A stretch of 64,000 bases of DNA from Mesorhizobium sp. B2-4-3. Lineage in GTDB: Bacteria; Pseudomonadota; Alphaproteobacteria; Rhizobiales; Rhizobiaceae. The stretch is taken from positions 1 through 64,000 of the forward strand of contig NZ_VFVL01000023.1 of assembly GCF_006442815.1 (NCBI RefSeq). The letters are read 5' to 3'. How positions within the stretch are numbered: position 1 is the first letter of the stretch; each line of letters begins with the position of its first letter. The notes under the pieces were generated by a model. That model saw nothing but the letters and a program-made list of their open reading frames with translations. It was not told the DNA's origin and ran no database searches. Positions 5,697-12,799 of the stretch are shown piece by piece. The position numbers and the translations under genes were made by a program.

Positions 5697-7502
5697 TCAA
5701 TCCCCCATCTTCAGCGCCTGGATAAACGCCTCCTGGGGAATATCGACCTTCCCAAACTGGCGCATCCGCTTCTTGCCCTCTTTCTGCTTGTCGAGCAGCT
5801 TGCGCTTGCGGGTCACGTCGCCGCCGTAGCATTTGGCGGTGACGTCCTTTCGCAGCGCCGAGATGGTCTCGCGGGCGATGACCTTGCCGCCGATCGCGGC
5901 CTGGATCGGGATCTTGAACAGGTGGTGCGGGATCAGCTCCTTCAGCTTCTCGCACATGGCGCGGCCGCGCTTTTCGGCCGCCGTGCGGTGCACCAGCATG
6001 GACAGCGCGTCGACCGGCTCCTCATTGACCAGGATCGACATCTTGACCAGGTCGCCCTCGCGATAGTCGGTCAGGTGATAGTCGAAGGAGGCGTAGCCCT
6101 TGGAGATCGACTTCAGCCGGTCGTAGAAATCGAAGACCACCTCGTTGAGCGGCAGGCCGTAGGTGAGCATGGCGCGCTTGCCCACATAGGAGAGATCGGC
6201 CTGGATGCCGCGCCTGTCCTGGCAGAGCTTCAGGATGCCGCCGAGATAATCGTCGGGGGTCAGGATGGTGGCGCGGATCCACGGCTCCTCGATCGAGGCG
6301 ATCTTGACCACGTCGGGCATGTCGGCCGGGTTGTGCAGTTCCTTGACCGAGCCGTCATTGAGGTTCAGGCGGTAGACGACGCTCGGCGCCGTGGCGATGA
6401 GGTCGAGGTTGAACTCGCGCTCCAGCCGCTCCTGGATGATCTCAAGATGCAGCAGGCCGAGGAAGCCGCAGCGATAGCCGAAGCCGAGCGCGGCGCTGGT
6501 TTCCATCTCATAGGAGAAGCTCGCGTCGTTGAGGCGCAATTTGCCGACGGCGGCGCGCAGGTCCTCGAAATCGGCGGCGTCGACCGGGAACAGGCCGCAG
6601 AACACCACCGGCTGCGCCGGCTTGAAGCCGGGCAGCGCATGCGCGGTCTGGCGCTTGTCCTCGGTGATGGTATCGCCGACGCGGGTGTCGGCCACTTCCT
6701 TGATCGAACCGGTGAAGAAGCCGAACTCGCCGGGACCGAGCTCATCGACATTGATACGGGCCGGCGTGAAGACGCCGGTGCGCTCGACGAGATATTTCGC
6801 GCCGGTGCCCATCATGCGGATGGTCTGACCCTTCTTGAGCACGCCGTCGATGATGCGCACCAGAACGATGACGCCGAGATAGGCGTCGTACCAGCTGTCA
6901 ACCAGCATGGCCTTGAGCGGTGCTGCGATGTCGCCCTCGCGCGGCGGCGGCAGCTGGTGGACGATCGCCTCCAGCACCTCGGGAACGCCAAGCCCGGTCT
7001 TGGCCGAGATCAGCACGGCGTTGGAAGCGTCGATGCCGATCACCTCCTCGACCTGCTCGCGGATGCGCTCGGGCTCGGCCGCCGGGAGGTCGACCTTGTT
7101 CAGCACCACGACGATCTCGTGGTTGTTGTCGATGGCCTGGTAGACATTGGCCAGCGTCTGCGCCTCGACGCCCTGGCTTGCGTCCACGACCAGCAGCGAG
7201 CCCTCGCAGGCGGCGAGCGAGCGCGACACTTCATAGGCGAAGTCGACATGGCCGGGCGTGTCGATGAGGTTGAGGATATAGTCCTCGCCATTGTTGGCGC
7301 GGTATTTCAGCCTCACCGTCTGCGCCTTGATGGTGATGCCGCGCTCGCGCTCGATATCCATCGAGTCCAGCACCTGCTCCTTCATGTCGCGCGCCTCCAG
7401 CCCGCCGGTGAGCTGGATCAGCCGGTCGGCAAGCGTGGATTTGCCATGGTCGATATGGGCGACGATGGAGAAATTGCGGATGTGGTCGAGCGGGGTGGTC
7501 AT
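5697..7502 (-). CDS. lepA: Elongation factor 4 (LepA)
   Basis: Ribosome back-translocating GTPase EF4. 601 residues from the ATG at 7502 ([20 protein letters not shown]), the usual LepA length; the frame extends 12 codons further upstream but that is outside the family start. G1 is [15 protein letters not shown]3 is DTPGHVDF and G4 is NKVDLP. The family's C-terminal domain follows ([17 protein letters not shown], ending in the basic [17 protein letters not shown]). Stand-alone gene; family A repeats follow its upstream side. Confidence 0.97.
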
Positions 7503-7551
7503 GCGGCGCGCTTTAGCAGGGGCCGGGTTGAGGGGCAAGCGGCGGGGGTTA

Positions 7552-7896: not shown

Positions 7897-7922
7897 GTAA
7901 CGAACCTCTCCACCCCGACGAA
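7897..7922 (+). promoter_or_regulatory. ECF-type promoter ahead of DUF1223 gene
   Basis: GTAACG at 7897-7902, a 16-base spacer, then CGAA at 7919-7922, 38 bp before the ATG. From memory, the ECF16 sigma factor SigF of Caulobacter uses GTAACC-N16-CGAA, so this is one mismatch away. Just downstream a 10-codon frame (ATG 7931, TGA 7961-7963) overlaps the DUF1223 start codon and may be a leader peptide. Confidence 0.45.
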
Positions 7923-7959
7923 ATGGGAGCATGACCAGCCGCAACGGAGACTGCTTCCC

Positions 7960-8652
7960 ATGACCGGAACGACAACAAGGATCGTCCTGCTTGCCGGCGC
8001 GATGCTCGCGGCCACGCTCGGCGCAGCTTCTGCGCAGCCGCTCACCGTGGTCGAGCTGTTCACCAGCCAGGGCTGCTCGTCCTGTCCGCCGGCCAACGCC
8101 AACCTGATCAAGGTCAAGGACCAGCCGGGCGTGCTGGCGCTGTCGTTCAACGTCACCTACTGGGACTATCTCGGCTGGAAGGACACGTTCGGCCGCAAGG
8201 AATTCACTGAACGCCAGGTGACCTACGAGCCGTCGCTCGGCCGTGACGGACCGTTCACGCCGCAAGTGGTGGTGAACGGCAGAAGCGACGGGGTGGGCGC
8301 GGCGCCGGGCGAGATCCAGAGCCTGATCGCCAAAGGTGGCCGCACGCAGGGGCCGGAGCTTTCGCTTGGGCAGGGCAAGGTCAGCATCGGCGCCGGCAAG
8401 GCGCCGGGCGGCGGCGCCGACATCTGGCTGGTGCGCTACACGAGAGGCGTCGTCGAGGTGCCGGTGGCGCGTGGCGAGAACACCGGACGCACCCTGCCGC
8501 ACGCCAATGTCGTGCATGCGCTGACGAAGCTCGGCAGCTGGAACGGCGAGGCCACCACGCTGCCGCTGCCGGCGGCCACCGGCGGCCTGAACACCGCGGT
8601 GCTGGTGCAGGCACCAGGCGGCGGACCGATCCTGGCCGCCGCCGCCAACTGA
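7960..8652 (+). CDS. Exported DUF1223 protein with CxxC motif
   Basis: 230 residues. A Sec signal peptide (VLLAGAMLAATLGAASAQ) is followed by a thioredoxin-like DUF1223 domain. The active-site-like motif is VELFTSQGCSSCPPANANL near residues 30-48, a CxxC that fits a periplasmic dithiol/disulfide protein. YWDYLGWKDTFG and FTPQVVVNG are also typical of the family. Its biochemical role is unknown. The methionine-repeat gene begins 87 bp downstream on the same strand, followed by an exported MsrA, so it could donate electrons to MsrA; that link is inference. Confidence 0.85.
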   Translation: MTGTTTRIVLLAGAMLAATLGAASAQPLTVVELFTSQGCSSCPPANANLIKVKDQPGVLALSFNVTYWDYLGWKDTFGRKEFTERQVTYEPSLGRDGPFTPQVVVNGRSDGVGAAPGEIQSLIAKGGRTQGPELSLGQGKVSIGAGKAPGGGADIWLVRYTRGVVEVPVARGENTGRTLPHANVVHALTKLGSWNGEATTLPLPAATGGLNTAVLVQAPGGGPILAAAAN

Positions 8653-8738
8653 TCCTTTTTCCCTACGCGCGAGGCCGCATGACAGCGGCAACGCATAACC
8701 CGGCCCGCTTCCGCGCGCCAAAACCCAAGGAGACTATC

Positions 8739-9005
8739 ATGACCAAGTTCCTCACGCTGCCGGCGCTCGCCTTCGCGCTTTCCGCGTCCGTCTTTGTCGC
8801 CGGCGCCCGCGCCGACGACACGACCAATGCGATGAAGCCGGCCGATGCGATGGCGACCGACGCCATGAAGCCGGCGACGGACGCGATGAAGCCCGCCGAT
8901 GCCATGAAGCCCGACGCGATGAGCACCGAGGCGATGAAGCCGGCGACCGACGCCATGAAGCCGGCCACGGATGCGATGAAGCCGGCGGATGGCACCGCGC
9001 AGTGA
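8739..9005 (+). CDS. Exported methionine-repeat peptide
   Basis: 88 residues from the ATG at 8739, preceded by an AAGGAG site; an upstream in-frame start at 8679 has no such site and would precede the signal peptide. The signal peptide (FLTLPALAFALSASVFVAG) probably cleaves after AGARA. The mature 63 residues are an imperfect tandem repeat of AMKPA(T)D units with nine Met, no Cys and no aromatic residue. This is a low-complexity, probably unfolded periplasmic peptide. It recalls MrpX, the methionine-rich oxidant-scavenging peptide of Azospira, although I see no direct homology. The exported MsrA 254 bp downstream is the natural enzyme to recycle it. Confidence 0.8.
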   Translation: MTKFLTLPALAFALSASVFVAGARADDTTNAMKPADAMATDAMKPATDAMKPADAMKPDAMSTEAMKPATDAMKPATDAMKPADGTAQ

Positions 9006-9016
9006 GATGAGCTTGG

Positions 9017-9168
9017 CACGCCCCCTCACCCGGATTGCCGACCGAATTGCGAAGAGCAATTCGGGGCAATCCGACCTCTCCCCACCGGGGAGAGGAGGCG
9101 GTCGGCGCCGGCGCTCTCTTCTCCCCCTCGGGGAGAAGGTGGCCCGAAGGGCCGGATGAGGGGGAGCG
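9017..9168. repeat. Family B repeat pair
   Basis: Divergent form of the family B element: CCCCCTCACCCGG arm, CTCTCCCC/GGGGAGAG hairpin and a closing GGAGAAGGTGGCCCGAAGGG copy, with ACCGAATTGCGAAGAGCAATTCGG as a second stem. It sits between the methionine-repeat gene and msrA, so the two may not share one transcript. Confidence 0.7.
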
Positions 9169-9204
9169 CCGCCGCTCACAAGAACAGCCGCACGGCAAAG
9201 TGAG

Positions 9205-9230
9205 AACCCCGTGGCGGCTTCGTTCGTATA
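9205..9230 (+). promoter_or_regulatory. ECF-like promoter ahead of msrA
   Basis: AACC at 9205-9208 (in GAGAACC), 16 bases, then CGTATA at 9225-9230, 28 bp before the msrA ATG. The AAC/CG pair with a 16-base spacer has the same geometry as the promoter at 7897. Confidence 0.35.
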
Positions 9231-9258
9231 TAGTGAAACGACAACAAGGAGACCCAAC

Positions 9259-9993
9259 ATGACCGGCATTGAAAAGAAAGCCGCGCGGCCGTTCCTTGCC
9301 AAGGGCGCGCTGGTAGCGCTGGCGCTCAGCGCGGCGGCGGCCGTCTTCTGGCAGAGCCCTGCCCGCTCGGCCGAGGACGCGGTGGTGATCCCGCCGCCGG
9401 CGATGGATGAAAAGGCGGCGAGCGGCACCGAGAAGGCGATCTTCGCCGGCGGCTGCTTCTGGGGCGTGCAGGGCGTGTTCCAGCACGTCAAGGGCGTCAG
9501 CAAGGCCGTGTCCGGCTATACCGGCGGCAGCGCCGAAAACGCCGTCTATGAGGTGGTCGGCAGCGGCCGCACGGGGCACGCCGAATCCGTCGAGATCACC
9601 TACGACCCGTCGAAGGTGACCTATGGCCAGCTGCTGCAGGTGTATTTCTCGGTCGCGCACAATCCGACGCAGTTGAACTACCAGGGTCCGGATTCAGGCA
9701 CGCAATACCGCTCGACGATCTTCGCCGAGAATGACGAGCAGAAGAAGGTCGCCGAGAGCTATATCGCCCAGCTCGACAAGGCCAAGGTGTTCGGCAAGCC
9801 GATCGTCACCACGCTCGAGACCGGCAAGACCTTCTACCCGGCCGAGGATTACCATCAGGATTTCCTGACGCTGAACCCGACCTATCCGTATATCGTCTAC
9901 AACGACCTGCCCAAGATCGAGAATTTGAAGGCGCTGTTCCCCAAGCTTTACAGCGAGAAGCCGGCGCTCGTGATGGCCTCCAGCAAGAGCTGA
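9259..9993 (+). CDS. msrA: Exported peptide-methionine (S)-S-oxide reductase
   Basis: Reduces methionine-S-sulfoxide. 244 residues from the ATG at 9259, preceded by CAAGGAG. An N-terminal hydrophobic stretch (GALVALALSAAAAVF) and SPARSAE cleavage site indicate export, so it works in the periplasm. The catalytic motif is AGGCFWGVQGVF with the catalytic Cys at residue 66; SGYTGG, HAESVEI, HDP-like VAHNPTQLNYQGPDSGTQYRS and YHQDFL complete the MsrA fold. It is the only cysteine, so there is no internal resolving Cys and an external thiol must regenerate it. Sits downstream of the methionine-repeat peptide and DUF1223 genes. Confidence 0.93.
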   Translation: MTGIEKKAARPFLAKGALVALALSAAAAVFWQSPARSAEDAVVIPPPAMDEKAASGTEKAIFAGGCFWGVQGVFQHVKGVSKAVSGYTGGSAENAVYEVVGSGRTGHAESVEITYDPSKVTYGQLLQVYFSVAHNPTQLNYQGPDSGTQYRSTIFAENDEQKKVAESYIAQLDKAKVFGKPIVTTLETGKTFYPAEDYHQDFLTLNPTYPYIVYNDLPKIENLKALFPKLYSEKPALVMASSKS

Positions 9994-10077
9994 AAGACAG
10001 GGATTCCGATCATCGGGTATGTGTCTACTTGGGCGGGTGGCATGCCTTGTAGATCGGCCGAAACGCCCATCGCGATC

Positions 10078-10398
10078 GTCATCCACGGGCGGAGCAAGGA
10101 GCGAAGCGACGCAGCGCAGACCCGAGGATCCATTCCGTGACGTCCGAGCGTTGCGGCGGTGCAGAATTCTGCTCCGCCGCATTCCATGGCTCAGGTCACG
10201 GAATGGATTCCAGGGTCTGCGCGACGCCGCTTCGCGGCTGCTCCGCCCTGGAATGACGAGGTTGGTATCTTTCGATCGTCGGGTATGAGTCCGCGTGGGG
10301 CAGGCGGCATGCCTTGGCGATTGGCCGAAACGCCAGCCAGTCGTCATCCACGGGCGAAGCAAGGAGCGAAGCGACGCGCAGACCCTGGAATGACGAGG
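10078..10398. repeat. Family C mosaic repeats (in 672-bp gap)
   Basis: A full family C element at 10078-10261 (outer arms CGTCATCCACGGGCGGAGC and CCCTGGAATGACGA, core GCAGAATTCTGC) and a shorter one at 10342-10398 that lacks the core. The two outer arms come from different subtypes, so the element is a mosaic. Together they fill most of the gap between msrA and the terminator at 10402. Confidence 0.8.
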
Positions 10399-12390: not shown

Positions 12391-12671
12391 GATTTTGAAA
12401 GGTTGCAGCCGGCAAGACTTTGGCCGTCATTTCCGTGAAATAAATCAGCGCAAACGCTCGCGATTTGCTGAAGCCCCCCAACTTCGTCATTCCAGGGCGG
12501 AGCAGCCGCGAAGCGGCGTCGCGCAGACCCTGGAATCCATTCCGTGACTTTGATCGAAGGATGCAGCGGAGCAGAATTCTGCACCGCTGCGAAGGCTCGG
12601 AAGTCGCGGAATGGATCCTCGGGTCTGCGCTGCGTCGCTTCGCTCCTTGCTCCGCCCGTGGATGACGACGA
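12391..12671. repeat. Composite D plus C repeat (430-bp gap)
   Basis: Family D (12391-12475; TTTTGAAAGGTTGC arm, TCCGTGAAAT and CAGCGCAAACGC) abuts a full family C element (12485-12671) with GCAGAATTCTGC core. The same D-C order recurs at 49448 and, inverted, at 61633-61930. The remaining 12672-12799 is the leader of the ABC ATPase gene, without a clear promoter. Confidence 0.8.
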
Positions 12672-12799
12672 GTGGGCGTTTTGGCCAATCTCCACGGCAC
12701 TCCCTGTCCAGAACTGTCAGCAACAGCGTCGATTCACAGTTGCACCGGGCGACATCCGACCTATATGAGAACACCTTTTCCAGCCGGCCGTATTTCAGC

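Follow-up and report, generated by a model that had tools for sequence, protein, structure and literature searches.

Results

A 64,000-nucleotide stretch of the Mesorhizobium sp. B2-4-3 genome (contig NZ_VFVL01000023.1, positions 1 to 64,000; hereafter the window) carries three genes for predicted exported proteins that together appear to form a regulated unit for coping with methionine oxidation in the cell envelope. The genes had been described in an earlier note as lying on one strand, and their reading frames are confirmed on the plus strand. The first (7960-8652) encodes a 230-residue DUF1223 protein, the second (8739-9005) an 88-residue methionine-rich peptide built of AMKPA(T)D repeats, and the third (9259-9993) a 244-residue methionine sulfoxide reductase A (MsrA). 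Signal peptides were assessed by eye throughout. The locus had been described as starting at position 7897, which is the exact first base of a GTAAC-N17-CGAAA motif (7897-7923, plus strand) situated 36 nucleotides 5′ of the DUF1223 start codon. This motif is of the type used by group 16 extracytoplasmic function (ECF16) sigma factors such as SigF, EcfF and BcrS.

The MsrA protein matches PF01625 and scores 178 bits against TIGR00401, for which the cut-off is 108 bits. Its one cysteine lies in the GGCFWG motif and there is no second, recycling cysteine, which bears out the earlier description of an MsrA without a resolving cysteine. A single cysteine is found in 57 of 63 MsrA reads. The exceptions are four proteins with an extra cysteine in the N-terminal region, one (locus L115) with an extra cysteine at residue 152, and the copy of genome G005, which is split across two frames and yields a read with none.

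Conservation was assessed in 61 Mesorhizobium genomes, the window's own counted in, and in 40 other genomes of the order, 101 together (genomes carry G numbers and loci L numbers). An exported MsrA is present in 59 of the 61 Mesorhizobium genomes, G013 and G055 being without it, and we retrieved all 59 loci plus the second MsrA copy of G052. A methionine-rich gene lies directly 5′ of the MsrA gene in 57 of the 59 genomes; it is missing in G006, in G023 and beside the second G052 copy. The peptide and exported MsrA are thus co-conserved; a lack of co-conservation had been named beforehand in the earlier note as a refuting outcome. A DUF1223 gene of this type accompanies them in 52 of the 57 peptide-bearing genomes, including two in which it lies on another contig (G018 and G014) and one in which it is broken (G043), and is absent from G015, G019, G041, G050 and G051. 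The gap between DUF1223 and peptide genes is 30-169 nucleotides (median 90; 50 loci). That between peptide and msrA is 55-338 nucleotides at 56 loci, with the split G005 read (436) set aside, and the median of all 57 is 175.

GTAAC-N17-CGAA occurs only once in the window, both strands considered, and this occurrence fits both tGTAACc-N16-CGAA, given as the ECF16 consensus in PMC3420878, and the Brucella sites shown in PMC8315932. A GTAAC-N16/17-CGAA motif precedes the unit at all 57 loci with upstream DNA, standing before the DUF1223 gene in 52 of 52 cases and, in the five of five that lack DUF1223, immediately 5′ of the peptide gene; the stretches L100 and L137 end at contig ends. The spacing is N17 in 55 of the 56 motifs tallied by script. 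Start codons assigned by script are partly too early, and a peptide start of this kind caused the 57th motif (L146), visible by reading, to be missed. For comparison, 104 of 5200 random 220-nucleotide stretches of the same loci contain the motif, true sites counted in. The linkage in 57 of 59 genomes and the position of both genes behind one ECF16-type promoter uphold the earlier view that peptide and exported MsrA form a regulated pair.

The window's genome contains one NrsF-type anti-sigma gene (PF06532), which adjoins an ECF sigma gene behind GTAAC-N17-CGAAC, and this pair is located apart from the unit. The promoter of the sigma gene and the NrsF gene beside it place it in group 16, and all 29 further NrsF loci that were screened likewise contain a GTAAC..CG[A/T]A motif. 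Of the 61 Mesorhizobium genomes, 58 have NrsF (in two pieces in G043), and the three without it, G006, G013 and G023, are also without the peptide. A second ECF sigma/NrsF pair in G055 (L341) adjoins an uncharacterised exported-type protein.

In two divergent relatives, G041 and G050, the sigma/NrsF pair adjoins the peptide-msrA pair; the two pairs are divergently transcribed from motifs that face each other, and lepA flanks the sigma pair. In the MsrA tree, the G041 protein occupies a long branch that arises at a basal fork without clear resolution. By eye, lepA adjoins the unit in the window as well (5697-7538, minus strand), and tblastn identifies the same gene in G041 and G050 (L343 and L344). 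We do not claim a constant chromosomal site beside lepA for the genus. The gene is present on only 23 of 65 short stretches, so the site of the unit has changed in many genomes.

The mature part of the window peptide comprises 63 residues, among them nine methionines, no cysteine and no histidine, and has a disordered look by eye. No family reaches its cut-off with this peptide; the searches return just weak alanine-zipper matches (E 1.1 in NCBIfam, E 0.19 in Pfam). Its orthologues are more informative. Three of them exceed the curated 41-bit cut-off of TIGR02953, the pentapeptide MXKDX repeat protein family (50.5 bits in G001, 48.1 in G060, and 48.5 in G050 with neighbouring stretches included), the G041 peptide scores 41.4 bits as a protein and 31.8 in the genome search, and the peptides of G054 and G017 reach 27 and 34 bits. 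Seven of the 101 genomes have a TIGR02953 match over the cut-off and 19 have one with E up to 0.001. Intermediate peptides combine AMKPA(T)D segments with segments of the MKKDE type. Through the scores of these relatives alone, we classify the window peptide as a derived member of the MXKDX/MrpX/BcrX group.

Selection on the unit was estimated as the ratio of nonsynonymous to synonymous substitution rates (dN/dS) in two hand-picked sets of close relatives, of 13 and 15 loci. The ratio is 0.043 and 0.040 for the mature peptide, values that the aligning of interchangeable repeats may bias downwards, 0.117 and 0.168 for MsrA, and 0.216 and 0.278 for DUF1223, which evolves faster than both partners. 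In the alignment columns with a methionine majority, one of 124 cells in the first set and none of 142 in the second hold another residue (1 of 266 in all), and on these alignments the methionines of the peptide are under purifying selection. Given its presence in 57 of 59 MsrA genomes, its low dN/dS and its preserved methionine columns, the peptide reading frame is not a chance repeat.

The DUF1223 protein matches PF06764 with 198 bits (E 2.5e-58), has a signal-like N-terminus by eye and carries a CSSC motif; the CxxC pattern is kept in 52 of 52 sequences, fragments counted. Solved structural relatives exist for both MsrA and the DUF1223 protein. The only one found for the latter by sequence is PDB 2axo (Agrobacterium Atu2684), which belongs to the thioredoxin class (PMC3091736). 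The window's genome has a second DUF1223 gene elsewhere and a second MsrA gene, and neither shows GTAAC-N15-18-CG[AT]A within the retrieved stretches. No DsbD/thioredoxin fusion was found in this genome; its single DsbD_TM protein is CcdA-like by eye and has no motif on its strand in the retrieved stretch.

The DUF1223 protein had been put forward as the electron donor that MsrA needs, and this part of the earlier proposal is not supported in that form. Because five of the 57 genomes keep promoter, peptide and MsrA without the gene, it is not a required part; the MsrA of these five has the same sole catalytic cysteine, N-terminal extras aside in L142, L146 and L149. A donor role is possible. 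Most likely, DUF1223 plays an auxiliary part as a thiol protein, either feeding or protecting the Msr enzymes.

Cysteine is absent from 45 of the 57 peptides. A cysteine pair occurs in the peptides of all five genomes without DUF1223 and in seven of the 52 with it. We do not claim a trade-off, since this difference (raw Fisher p 0.0002) reflects only two independent pairs on supported branches of the tree, which are too few independent changes.

The same motif stands before genes for methionine sulfoxide reductase B (MsrB), which were searched in 37 Mesorhizobium genomes, the motif counts coming from a subset of the matches. The motif precedes the cytosolic msrB at 33 of 34 loci (30 of 30, then present in G005, G006 and G028 and absent in G013), and it precedes the exported msrB at 24 of 25 loci; G006, a genome with no NrsF match, is the one without it. 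Among the genome-wide motif matches, that of msrB was retained because it is conserved across relatives. At L346, an exported msrB (600-914) follows the end of a gene that is fasciclin-like by eye, and the ECF16 motif lies on the stop codon of that gene.

MsrP exceeds its cut-off in two of the 61 Mesorhizobium genomes (G013 and G039) versus 28 of the 40 others, and falls below it in the window's genome. G013 has MsrP and no exported MsrA, and G039 has both, plus a second NrsF beside MsrP. The apparent exclusion between MsrP and exported MsrA (raw p 8e-14 over 101 genomes) is reported as a count only, since the genomes are mostly of one genus. On a short contig of G039 (L340), the second NrsF gene and a sigma gene in two pieces adjoin MsrP, with no visible methionine-rich open reading frame (ORF), and this looks like a separate BcrXQP-type locus.

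Two genomes from two other families of the order, G071 and G091 (loci L337, 4360-8661, and L338, 4120-8183), carry an MXKDX peptide gene followed by genes for a response regulator and a histidine kinase, both recognised by eye, and for an MsrAB fusion. No ECF16 motif was seen before either peptide gene, the G091 stretch covering only about 125 nucleotides upstream. Thus, methionine-rich peptide and MsrA occur together under two different regulators. G094 has a stand-alone MXKDX peptide (L205/L342) with 10 methionines in 40 residues, behind its own GTAACA..TCGT, in a genome with msrA-msrB of the Bradyrhizobium type; at a guess, this peptide could be the counterpart of the EcfF target bsr4431.

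A scan of named genomes yielded at least 587 relatives, of which the best 80 loci were used. Within these 80, DUF1223 was detected near MsrA only at the four Mesorhizobium loci. A script for methionine-rich peptides, which can overlook them through its start rule, finds the peptide at three of the four, and it is found by reading at the other (L286/L138, M. loti DSM 2626). Also within the best 80, msrA-msrB has GTAAC..CCGT upstream at eight of eight Bradyrhizobium loci, and MsrB lies 1.4-2.1 kb upstream of MsrA at 20 loci. MsrB, a DsbD/thioredoxin fusion and MsrA follow one another in a Pseudomonas and in a Rhizobiales isolate; this order was checked by Pfam at two loci and by eye at one. In Cypionkella (L288), ECF/NrsF genes are accompanied by MsrB, a DsbD-like protein, MsrA and a different methionine-rich ORF; this exported-type ORF (L288 7569-7907, Cypionkella psychrotolerans) is unlike MXKDX and has no Pfam match. 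A metagenome-assembled genome of the Rhizobiaceae (L302) has ECF/NrsF, MsrB and MsrA.

Palindromic repeat-like DNA occupies intergenic positions 9006-9210 of the window, between the peptide gene and msrA, as well as 10030-10300 and 12440-12700, and is crossed by spurious ORFs. By eye it resembles rhizobial mosaic elements.

Discussion

We propose, with a probability of roughly 0.72, that the unit defends the envelope in the manner of MrpX/BcrX, under ECF16 control and with MsrA substituting for MsrP (YedY) and MsrQ. Specifically, an oxidant of periplasmic methionine (hypochlorous acid (HOCl), chloramines, singlet oxygen or peroxide) would free the sigma factor from NrsF, as the analogous BcrS and EcfF suggest. 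The peptide, apparently disordered and with a methionine every five to seven positions, would then be produced in bulk as an oxidant sink, such that its methionines are oxidized instead of envelope proteins. MsrA acts on S-sulfoxides of methionine and MsrB on R-sulfoxides. Exported MsrA could therefore reduce the S-sulfoxides of the peptide while exported MsrB reduces the R-sulfoxides, and the reduced peptide would become reusable.

Several observations weigh against this proposal. All genus-wide counts are raw, with kinship ignored. The window peptide itself has no match to TIGR02953, and neither has the remainder of its genome. G055 has two NrsF genes and no unit, G006 and G023 have MsrA with neither peptide nor motif beside it, and G006 also keeps the motif before its cytosolic msrB although it has no NrsF match. 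For the exported msrB of the window's genome, the GTAA of the motif shares bases with the stop codon of the preceding gene, so the conservation of that motif may be partly coding. A loose form of the motif gives 26 matches genome-wide, most with no convincing gene behind them, versus 35 for the reversed pattern; because there is no excess, we rejected the genome-wide search as proof of a regulon, and the argument for the motif is one of position and conservation alone. Finally, a −10-like element, CGTATA, precedes msrA in the window (9225-9230, plus strand), and a similar string lies within 70 nucleotides of msrA at 31 of 56 loci. This possible second promoter suggests that MsrA may be made independently of the sigma factor.

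The best surviving alternative retains the proposed defence and adds DUF1223 as a dedicated electron donor, by which the sulfenic acid on the single-cysteine MsrA would be resolved. We consider this addition possible and rather doubtful. The shared promoter and gene order in 52 genomes, the invariant CxxC on a thioredoxin-like fold (2axo; PMC3091736) and a genome with a lone CcdA-like DsbD_TM protein in place of any DsbD/thioredoxin fusion found all speak for it. Against this stand the five peptide-bearing genomes that lack the gene while MsrA still has its single catalytic cysteine, although a further DUF1223 gene at another site in the genomes could cover where the gene of the unit is missing. 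Moreover, DUF1223 evolves faster than its partners, the MsrA genes of G006, G023, G094, G065 and G075 have no DUF1223 on the retrieved stretches, and members of this MsrA clade in some other genera follow a DsbD/thioredoxin fusion instead (the two loci checked by Pfam).

A more ambitious version would describe a self-contained, molybdenum-free methionine sulfoxide cycle, in which one ECF16 regulon supplies the sacrificial peptide, exported MsrA and MsrB, and in most species DUF1223. The latter would represent a novel type of thiol donor in the periplasm, taking over from the DsbD/thioredoxin route that accompanies this MsrA clade elsewhere; where DUF1223 is missing, the cysteine pair of the peptide might substitute. 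This full cycle is an unlikely, if attractive, extension.

It is improbable that the genes are merely adjacent, with MsrA repairing ordinary envelope proteins and the peptide serving an unrelated structural or acid-stress role. Weak Lpp-like matches and, for a relative, Asr-like matches, all below cut-off, would agree with such a role, as would the persistence of MsrA alone in G006 and G023. The common promoter and the linkage in 57 of 59 genomes oppose it, as do G071 and G091, where MsrAB again accompanies an MXKDX peptide and the regulator is of another type.

Small exported proteins of the DUF2282/DUF692 type bind copper, and methionine-based metal motifs have Met-Met distances of 1-3. Even so, we think it very improbable that the peptide serves chiefly to bind metal (copper), the Msr genes being merely co-regulated: the Caulobacter ECF16 factor SigF does answer chromate and cadmium, and DUF2282/DUF692 genes are dichromate-induced (PMC3511200), but of 536 Met-Met distances in the peptides 490 are 5, 6 or 7 and only eight are 1-3, the mature window peptide offers neither histidine nor cysteine, most of its relatives are cysteine-free, and the peptide gene is physically linked to MsrA.

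If the proposed defence operates as outlined, hypochlorite sinks would extend beyond those served by a quinone-fed molybdoenzyme and include thiol-based repair by MsrA/MsrB in a genus of legume symbionts, for which the oxidative bursts of plants would be a likely trigger. It would also give DUF1223, a family of unknown function, a testable place in envelope redox chemistry.

Among known systems, that of Brucella melitensis offers a clear parallel. There, bcrXQP is driven by BcrS, is induced by HOCl and contributes to resistance against it, and BcrX is named an MXKDX protein (PMC8315932). Both systems join an ECF16 sigma factor and its anti-sigma factor (BcrS-AbcS in Brucella) to an MXKDX-type methionine-rich peptide and a co-regulated Msr, and the facing GTAAC...CGAA promoters of G041 and G050 have the layout published for bcrS/bcrX in the same paper. 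The repair enzymes differ, being MsrP/MsrQ homologues (in E. coli quinone-fed) in Brucella and MsrA in Mesorhizobium. The portion of PMC8315932 available mentions no DUF1223, and in the window's genome the sigma pair lies elsewhere and the repeats are cysteine-free AMKPA(T)D. MrpX/YedY1 of Azospira suillum likewise combines a methionine-rich periplasmic peptide with an Msr under SigF/NrsF (via PMC4623255, PMC5748585 and PMC8315932); its YedY1/YedZ1 reductase and perchlorate context are unlike the Mesorhizobium MsrA unit.

The EcfF/OsrA regulon of Bradyrhizobium japonicum provides a parallel for the enzyme. EcfF drives the MsrA Blr7043, predicted to be periplasmic, from an ECF16-type promoter, with a second Msr gene, blr7044 (PMC3420878). 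According to the available text of that paper, this msrA-msrB pair has no adjacent peptide gene, unlike the Mesorhizobium unit, and electrons are proposed to arrive through the DsbD-like Bll1027 and the thioredoxin Bll1026.

Operons of the Pseudomonas type, in the order MsrB, DsbD/thioredoxin fusion and MsrA, belong to the same wider exported MsrA clade as the Mesorhizobium unit, and no MXKDX peptide was detected in them by script. Such Msr-DsbD/thioredoxin operons of Pseudomonas and other proteobacteria follow a PilB-like logic.

What appears to be new is the putative peptide-MsrA operon of Mesorhizobium, its DUF1223 gene and the near-absence of MsrP, of which we found no description in the literature searched. 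The principle of such a sink was already known, as were its regulator and its peptide family (PMC8315932), and exported msrA and msrB had been noted in two related sigF/nrsF/mrpX islands (PMC4623255). The earlier suggestion of a separate, MsrA-based version therefore stands in so far as MsrA takes the place of MsrP/YedY, and is set aside as regards independence from MrpX: three orthologous peptides over the MXKDX cut-off, together with the same type of regulator, place the unit with the MrpX/BcrX hypochlorite sink. This comparison suggests that one repair enzyme can be exchanged for another with peptide and regulator retained, a pattern that bears on the purpose of the peptide.

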